Virus record (IMG/VR): IMGVR_UViG_3300030101_000172
Span: 1 to 60,546 of that record
Strand: one strand, 5' to 3'
Length of the DNA stretch: 60,546 nt
DNA from: a virus
In this document: positions 24,132 through 24,822 of the stretch, piece after piece
How positions within the stretch are numbered: position 1 is the first letter of the stretch
Layout of the letters: every line of letters starts with the position of its first letter
Notes under the pieces: generated by a model
Told to the model about the DNA's origin: nothing
Seen by the model: only the letters and a program-made list of their open reading frames with translations
The model's database searches: none
Made by a program: the position numbers and the translations under genes

Positions 24132-24150
24132 GTGCCAAAATTATTTGACA

Positions 24151-24174
24151 CCAGTTACACGGGTAGCGTTGAGC
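24151..24174 (+). repeat. direct repeat A, CCAGTTACACGGGTAGCG + TTGAGC
   Basis: A 24-base element identical to the copy at 24248-24271. It is followed 47 bases later by palindrome copy 2. Confidence 0.9.
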
Positions 24175-24220
24175 ATTAGCGATTAGTGTACAGAGTTGTT
24201 GCCATGTGTTTGTGCTATCT

Positions 24221-24239
24221 TGTTAGTGTCCCCCTAACA
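24221..24239. repeat. palindrome copy 2, TGTTAGTG-TCC-CCCTAACA
   Basis: One mismatch in the right arm (CCC for CAC). It follows a TTTGTGCTAT sequence also found at the promoter near 24.84 kb. Confidence 0.85.
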
Positions 24240-24247
24240 AAAAGATG

Positions 24248-24271
24248 CCAGTTACACGGGTAGCGTTGAGC
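24248..24271 (+). repeat. direct repeat B
   Basis: Identical over 24 bases to 24151-24174, 97 bases downstream. Palindrome copy 3 follows at a similar distance, so repeat plus palindrome form a duplicated unit. Confidence 0.9.
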
Positions 24272-24315
24272 CATTTAGACACGTGATAACTTGTTATAGT
24301 GTGTGTAGCATAGCG

Positions 24316-24334
24316 TGTTAGTGTATCCCTAACA
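24316..24334. repeat. palindrome copy 3, TGTTAGTG-TAT-CCCTAACA
   Basis: It has the same single mismatch as copy 2 and lies 95 bases from it, supporting duplication of a unit of about 95-97 bases. Confidence 0.85.
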
Positions 24335-24355
24335 AGATAACGAGTCAGTATGAAA

Positions 24356-24380
24356 CCAGTTATGGTAGTAGCGTTGAGCC
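24356..24380 (+). repeat. direct repeat C (diverged)
   Basis: It shares CCAGTTA and GTAGCGTTGAGCC with repeats A and B but has TGGTA in the middle. It is followed directly by the first AATGTTCGG half-site. Confidence 0.75.
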
Positions 24381-24381
24381 T

Positions 24382-24745
24382 AATGTTCGGTAATTTTTAT
24401 AATGTTCTGCGAATGTTCGGTGAATGTTCGGTTTTTTTACACAACATCCGTACATTATGTTTTGGTAGCATATAGTGGTGAGTTGTATCGAGCATTAGAG
24501 TTTCTTGCCTATCAGCTTTTGCAGTTTAATGTAGTTTCTTAACAGTTATATATAATGTTCGTTTTTTAAAATATTACTTCGATATGTTAGTGACACACTA
24601 ACACGTTTTGAGAATGTTCTGTAATCGAGAAGGGGTCGTCAGCAGGTTAATAAAATCCCGATCTTGCCGAACATTAGAACATTTCAGAAAAATCAAATAC
24701 TTATTCGTATACTATAAAGAACATTATAGTACATTGCAGAACATT
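24382..24745. repeat. array of ten AATGTTC / GAACATT half-sites in opposed orientation
   Basis: AATGTTC(G/T) begins at 24382, 24401, 24412, 24423, 24554 and 24613. The reverse motif (C/A)GAACATT begins at 24668, 24676, 24718 and 24738. Spacings of 11, 11 and about 20 bases put several on the same helix face. Confidence 0.75.
24585..24603. repeat. palindrome copy 4, TGTTAGTG-ACA-CACTAACA
   Basis: Perfect arms. It lies within the half-site array of the putative origin, between the fifth and sixth AATGTTC sites. Confidence 0.9.
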
Positions 24746-24822
24746 ACGTTATATGGTACAATATACTACGACAGCCCACGGGTGGAGGTAATAAACCATA
24801 GAATAACACGTTTACACATTAC

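Follow-up and report, generated by a model that had tools for sequence, protein, structure and literature searches.

A probable composite control region in an uncultured phage: a conserved repeat array and dispersed palindromes that change together with a linked candidate regulator gene

The non-coding stretch at 24132–24822 of an uncultured phage (IMG/VR virus record IMGVR_UViG_3300030101_000172; 60,546 nt, hereafter the window) holds three repeat families, namely AATGTTC sites, palindromes and a 24-nt direct repeat, which are separate systems with different fates. The explanation that best accounts for them, to which we assign a joint probability of about 0.6, is that a composite control region heads the early arm here: the AATGTTC array would be the phage replicator, the palindromes would be operators for the product of a nearby gene, g201, and regulator and operators would change specificity jointly. 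The original prediction had described a replication origin made of two interleaved repeat systems; three families are present instead.

Repeats are far commoner in this stretch than expected by chance, and both of its predicted borders, a terminator and a promoter, were recovered as candidate sites. Apart from the palindromes, the features of the region are as follows (positions are those of the window).

24103–24124, plus strand: intrinsic-terminator-like hairpin, left border of the stretch
24151–24379, plus strand: three same-way copies of CCAGTT-N-GCGTTGAGC (24151, 24248, 24356), the third motif
24382–24429, plus strand: forward AATGTTC cluster, iteron-like (24382, 24401, 24412, 24423)
24526–24585, no strand: AT-rich core of low stability, possible unwinding element, AT-rich in relatives too
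24554–24619, plus strand: two more forward AATGTTC sites (24554, 24613) at the AT-rich core
24669–24745, minus strand: reverse AATGTTC cluster (24669, 24677, 24719, 24739)
24823–24851, plus strand: promoter-like site TTGACA-17-TATACT with extended −10, for the early arm

Searches for an RNA gene in the stretch were negative: no tRNA was detected, Rfam gave no match, and a covariation test found compensatory change in none of 20 predicted pairs. A structured RNA was rejected on the latter two results. Annotated phages were also searched for DNA neighbours of the window, and none was found.

The ten AATGTTC sites, six forward followed by four reverse, are arranged around the AT-rich core, and the earlier description of such sites flanking AT-rich runs is thus confirmed. 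Shuffling of the 691 bases gave a mean of 0.135 copies of this motif and a maximum of three, and in 2000 shuffles the commonest 7-mer of any kind reached at most eight copies. The core lies within the least stable 0.25% of all 60-base intervals of the record. The array is kept in about 40 relatives (numbered with the prefix L below) with recurring spacings, and it stays unchanged under eight or more palindrome types. Across 48 loci there are 325 exact AATGTTC sites, among which spacings of 42, 8, 22, 20 and 10 recur, which shows that the array is under constraint. Exceptions are L074, with a variant array elsewhere, and L079, without a clear array. More distant phages carry arrays of other short repeats (TGTTCCA in L074; GTATGAC in Planktothrix phage Pag-Yong1). 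In L074, TGTTCCA occurs 11 times at 37–319, often 24 bases apart and about 2.2 kb left of the homolog of the 308-aa gene listed below, and in Pag-Yong1 (L160) GTATGAC forms a direct array at 649–1337.

Two exact copies of the 24-base repeat CCAGTTACACGGGTAGCGTTGAGC start 97 bases from each other, at 24151 and 24248. The length of 95–97 bases originally given for a duplicated unit is therefore right; the second half of the unit has diverged, however, with 24196–24240 and 24291–24335 being 71% alike and holding the palindromes at 24222 and 24317. The diverged third copy of the repeat that had been claimed is present at 24356 with 79% identity. In relatives, CCAGTT-N-GCGTTGAGC is found in one to five copies, in the forward orientation only and mostly directly left of the array.

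The palindrome GTTAGTG-N3-CACTAAC occurs at nine perfect sites and as two one-change variants, located between and inside early genes. It had been taken as a local part of the stretch, but its 11 places range from 23043 to 31107. Searching both strands for GTTAGTG-N{0,10}-CTAAC gave 20 exact matches against 0.1 expected, all at 23.0–31.1 kb; one further place, at 6401, has three mismatches and is at chance level. The start codons of moxR and VWA each have a site 31 nt upstream, three sites are located inside ORFs, and the rest are in gaps. Literature searches found no paper on these palindromes. The sites and the two genes referred to most often below are listed here.

23043–23059, no strand: perfect palindrome preceding g201, the putative regulator gene; possible autoregulation
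23117–23722, plus strand: g201, putative regulator of 201 aa (start possibly 23192), homologs of which switch with palindrome type
24222–24238, no strand: operator-like palindrome, hybrid of GTTAGTG and GTTAGGG half-sites
24317–24333, no strand: operator-like palindrome, hybrid of GTTAGTG and GTTAGGG half-sites
24586–24602, no strand: perfect palindrome GTTAGTG-ACA-CACTAAC, inside the array
25026–25042, no strand: perfect palindrome at the end of a 65-aa ORF and 53 nt ahead of the 308-aa gene
25079–26005, plus strand: 308-aa gene, weakly similar to DUF3150 and a backbone marker for the phage family
25118–25134, no strand: perfect palindrome within the 308-aa gene, in its first codons
26019–26035, no strand: perfect palindrome 31 nt upstream of the start codon of a MoxR-type ATPase
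27156–27172, no strand: perfect palindrome 31 nt upstream of the start codon of the VWA gene
28892–28908, no strand: perfect palindrome inside a 385-aa gene
31053–31069, no strand: perfect palindrome in an intergenic gap
31091–31107, no strand: perfect palindrome in the same intergenic gap

Relatives were retrieved with the 308-aa and VWA proteins as queries. Each well-covered close relative has its own repeated palindrome, often of a different sequence and in up to 11 copies, and more than ten types were found (GTTAGGG, GTTAGTC with two spacings, GTAGTGA, GTAGTAC, TTTACGG, TTTACGC, GTTATGC, GTTATCC and others). Their positions match: sites precede g201, number two or three within the array region, fall in the opening codons of the 308-aa gene, and lie 25–72 nt upstream of moxR and ahead of VWA and further genes. 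The clearest switch pair is L068 and L073, in which the palindromes have been replaced in place between flanks of up to 96% identity; upstream of moxR, for example, the pair reads ccaacTGTAGTGACTCACTACA versus ccaacCGTTAGTCGCTGACTAAC. With ORFs at contig edges left out, the products of more than 100 aa in this pair, including terminase, portal, MoxR and polymerase, are 81–99% identical, and g201, which is without a match, is the sole well-covered larger gene that has changed. The small gene of the 65-aa type before the 308-aa gene is 55% identical. Other close natural switch pairs are L057/L050 and L015/L049. The hybrid form of sites 24222 and 24317 recurs near the same place in six relatives (L029, L031, L034, L077, L086, and L094), and L050 has TTACGCA/TTACGGA hybrid sites. 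Such hybrid half-sites look like intermediates of a specificity change.

The gene g201 is located directly right of the first palindrome. Among pairs of phages with moxR at least 85% identical, those with different palindromes never exceeded 40% g201 identity, and those with the same palindrome had median g201 identities of 52, 71 and 91% in rising moxR bands. The converse fails: L014 has the palindrome of the window at 25% g201 identity, L019 and L065 share theirs at 31%, and L147 and L158 likewise fall outside the main GTTAGTG group. On these comparisons the mapping between palindrome and g201 is not one-to-one. In the g201 tree, GTTAGGG and GTAGTGA each form a single group (support 96 and 99, respectively), and they need three and two changes, respectively, in the moxR tree. 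In total, palindrome labels change nine times on the g201 tree versus ten times on the moxR tree. Since these totals are nearly equal, the claim of a joint switch rests on the close pairs and on a search with the g201 of the window alone, in which the more similar hits were GTTAGTG phages and the hits at ~30–38% identity were mostly GTTAGGG phages. Because g201 and the palindromes are replaced together, g201 is likely the DNA-binding regulator that recognises the palindromes. Its predicted model is all-helical (mean pLDDT 82), with a long basic helix at residues 91–119. The product of L073, ~20% identical to g201, has a similar predicted order of helices at lower confidence (74), the two models being derived from overlapping alignments. 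Comparison of g201 with Pfam, PHROG and solved structures gave no convincing match and no recognised DNA-binding domain, fold searches with the model returned nothing reliable, and a search of annotated phages for homologs found none. Weak helical matches, mainly at residues 127–176, were not used. In the g201 homologs of L060 (6393–6863) and L061 (6317–6895), the C-terminal parts are nearly identical and the N-terminal parts differ, a pattern that suggests domain exchange.

What the palindromes do, and for which protein, could be explained in other ways. Another factor might bind them, with g201 merely linked or following the same diversification; the lack of a known DNA-binding fold in g201 and its imperfect correspondence with palindrome type would fit this. 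Such a factor is nevertheless unlikely, as the closest switch pair carries no change in any other well-covered larger gene and palindrome type is predicted by a search with g201 alone. It is less probable still that the palindromes function at the RNA level or as hairpins extruded from the DNA, be it in processing or translation control near start codons or as N4-like hairpin promoters recognised by an RNA polymerase of the phage. They could form a 7-bp stem closed by a 3–4-nt loop and often lie ~30 nt 5′ of a start codon, and a 341-aa protein (29779–30804) has a weak likeness to an RNA polymerase N-terminal domain (E 0.009); a search for a single-subunit RNA polymerase was negative, with its positive control also silent. 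Against hairpins, the loop varies within the window, and a G-U pair is kept in just 2 of 28 one-mismatch copies, compared with about one in six by chance, and thus shows no sign of selection for pairing. Several types are furthermore symmetric through the centre (e.g. TTTACGGAATTCCGTAAA), which leaves no separate loop. Together, the scarcity of G-U pairs, the hybrid half-sites and the full symmetry favour the prediction that the palindromes are duplex DNA sites read by a symmetric protein.

Whether the stretch is a replication origin has to be considered family by family. The least probable reading is the one first put forward, which takes every repeat family, the palindromes among them, as initiator sites of a single origin. 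The three families do meet within one non-coding stretch, and the array with its AT-rich core looks origin-like. The palindromes, however, reach 6.5 kb further right, to 31.1 kb and into coding sequence, and are exchanged independently of an array that persists in related phages. The origin reading is therefore supported in part for the array and core, on their anatomy and family-wide conservation, and not supported for the palindromes and the duplicated unit. The array is the best origin candidate of the stretch, and the chance that initiation occurs there is about even. Short repeats adjoin an AT-rich element, as is expected of iteron origins; an initiator protein would bind the AATGTTC sites and then open the core, around which the two groups of sites are opposed. 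An array that serves instead as a partition site, a packaging site or an enhancer of the adjoining early promoter is a serious contender, if a less probable one. The terminase large-subunit gene lies less than 3 kb away, the promoter-like site is directly downstream, and no initiator gene was recognised among the window proteins searched. Opposed site groups around an AT-rich core nevertheless fit an origin at least equally well, and no partition gene was recognised among the scanned window proteins. A conserved MerR-like 93-aa protein at 37432 has no link to the array. Cumulative GC skew, which had been proposed as a check, has its minimum at 22815, the divergence point of the two gene arms and ~1.6 kb left of the array; this is non-decisive, being confounded by gene strand. 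Skew was rejected as proof of an origin, as replication is inseparable from transcription at this point. A terminator-like hairpin is also found at the start of the leftward arm (22881–22902).

For the palindromes we thus prefer the operator model. The set of sites, their conserved positions and their exchange by type, along with the corresponding exchange of g201, were observed directly. On this basis, the three palindromes of the stretch would be part of eleven operators for the g201 product, which would bind them in a two-fold symmetric form, control its own gene through site 23043, and block or tune transcription of the early operon at sites 5′ of start codons and within genes. Specificity would diversify as in immunity systems, g201 and the whole operator set changing as the surrounding genes stay constant. 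Searches of 18 records, several of ~60 kb, for tyrosine and serine recombinases were negative while their controls were positive; these phages may undergo lysogeny without an integrase. One prophage and host scan of bacterial genomes returned seven contigs only, most or all from metagenome assemblies. The window also encodes a 2256-aa protein with the large polyvalent protein domain LPD39 of Pfam (41476–48246).

How a regulator with many dispersed sites changes its specificity is an open problem, which is hard to explain because all the sites must change along with it. The close natural pairs L068/L073, L057/L050 and L015/L049, together with the hybrid half-sites, make the path of change directly testable. 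We tentatively suggest that g201 represents an undescribed and fold-unassigned family of phage regulators, with two-fold symmetric operators scattered in early genes, which would diversify as an immunity-like specificity system in phages without a detected integrase. The entire set of about ten operators would be rewritten in place whenever the regulator is exchanged, and the system could mediate exclusion between related, possibly virulent phages. In addition, the phage family supplies an origin candidate that is conserved, and a repeated palindrome with a linked variable gene provides a search key for a large group of uncultured phages.

Among known systems, the array resembles iteron origins (lambda ori, iteron plasmids) in that its short repeats adjoin an AT-rich run and are spaced, in places, by about one helical turn, and differs from them in its two opposed site groups and in having no recognised initiator gene beside it. 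Planktothrix phage Pag-Yong1 and Rhizobium phage RHph_TM3_14A are distant relatives by their MoxR/VWA gene block and have 9–14 palindromes, but of other sequences and without a g201 homolog by profile. Pag-Yong1 has 12–14 CGGTTCAG-N-CTGAACCG palindromes at 1564–21079, ~31–36 nt upstream of most start codons, and in RHph_TM3_14A (L162) GTTACC-N6-GGTAAC and TTACCT-N4-AGGTAA palindromes are dispersed in genes and gaps at 1197–32885. Lambda-type operators with a dimeric repressor share the 17-bp two-fold symmetric sites, the variable centre and the imperfect half-sites, whereas the sites here are spread over 8 kb, some inside genes. Searches for an HTH_3 (XRE) repressor, the control being positive, gave no hit at E 0.1 for the window record and none over the cut-off in nine records.

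The closest parallel is with the stoperators of Cluster A mycobacteriophages such as L5, Bxb1, and TipsytheTRex (PMC6550527, PMC9283540). In those phages, stoperator motif and immunity repressor diverge together between phages (PMC6550527), as do motif and putative regulator here; in both cases one site recurs in many copies across the early genes, at promoters and in the short gaps between genes, with one copy beside the regulator gene. Stoperators, however, are 13-base asymmetric sites whose orientation follows transcription, and the protein that binds them is a monomer containing a helix-turn-helix (PMC9283540). The sites in the window are 17-base palindromes (17–18 bases in the phages studied here) without orientation. 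They number eleven, compared with 20–30 in L5, and some are inside genes. The Cluster A repressor, which halts elongation and confers immunity, has an N-terminal helix-turn-helix and a second DNA-binding domain; g201 gave no family, sequence or fold match, a result with which such a fold is still compatible. Cluster A phages are temperate, with an integrase or parABS, and in the 18 records examined here no integrase was detected. In its presumed function the predicted operator set thus resembles Cluster A stoperators, but its sites are palindromic and it has no recognised repressor; it can best be described as a variant form of dispersed-operator regulation.
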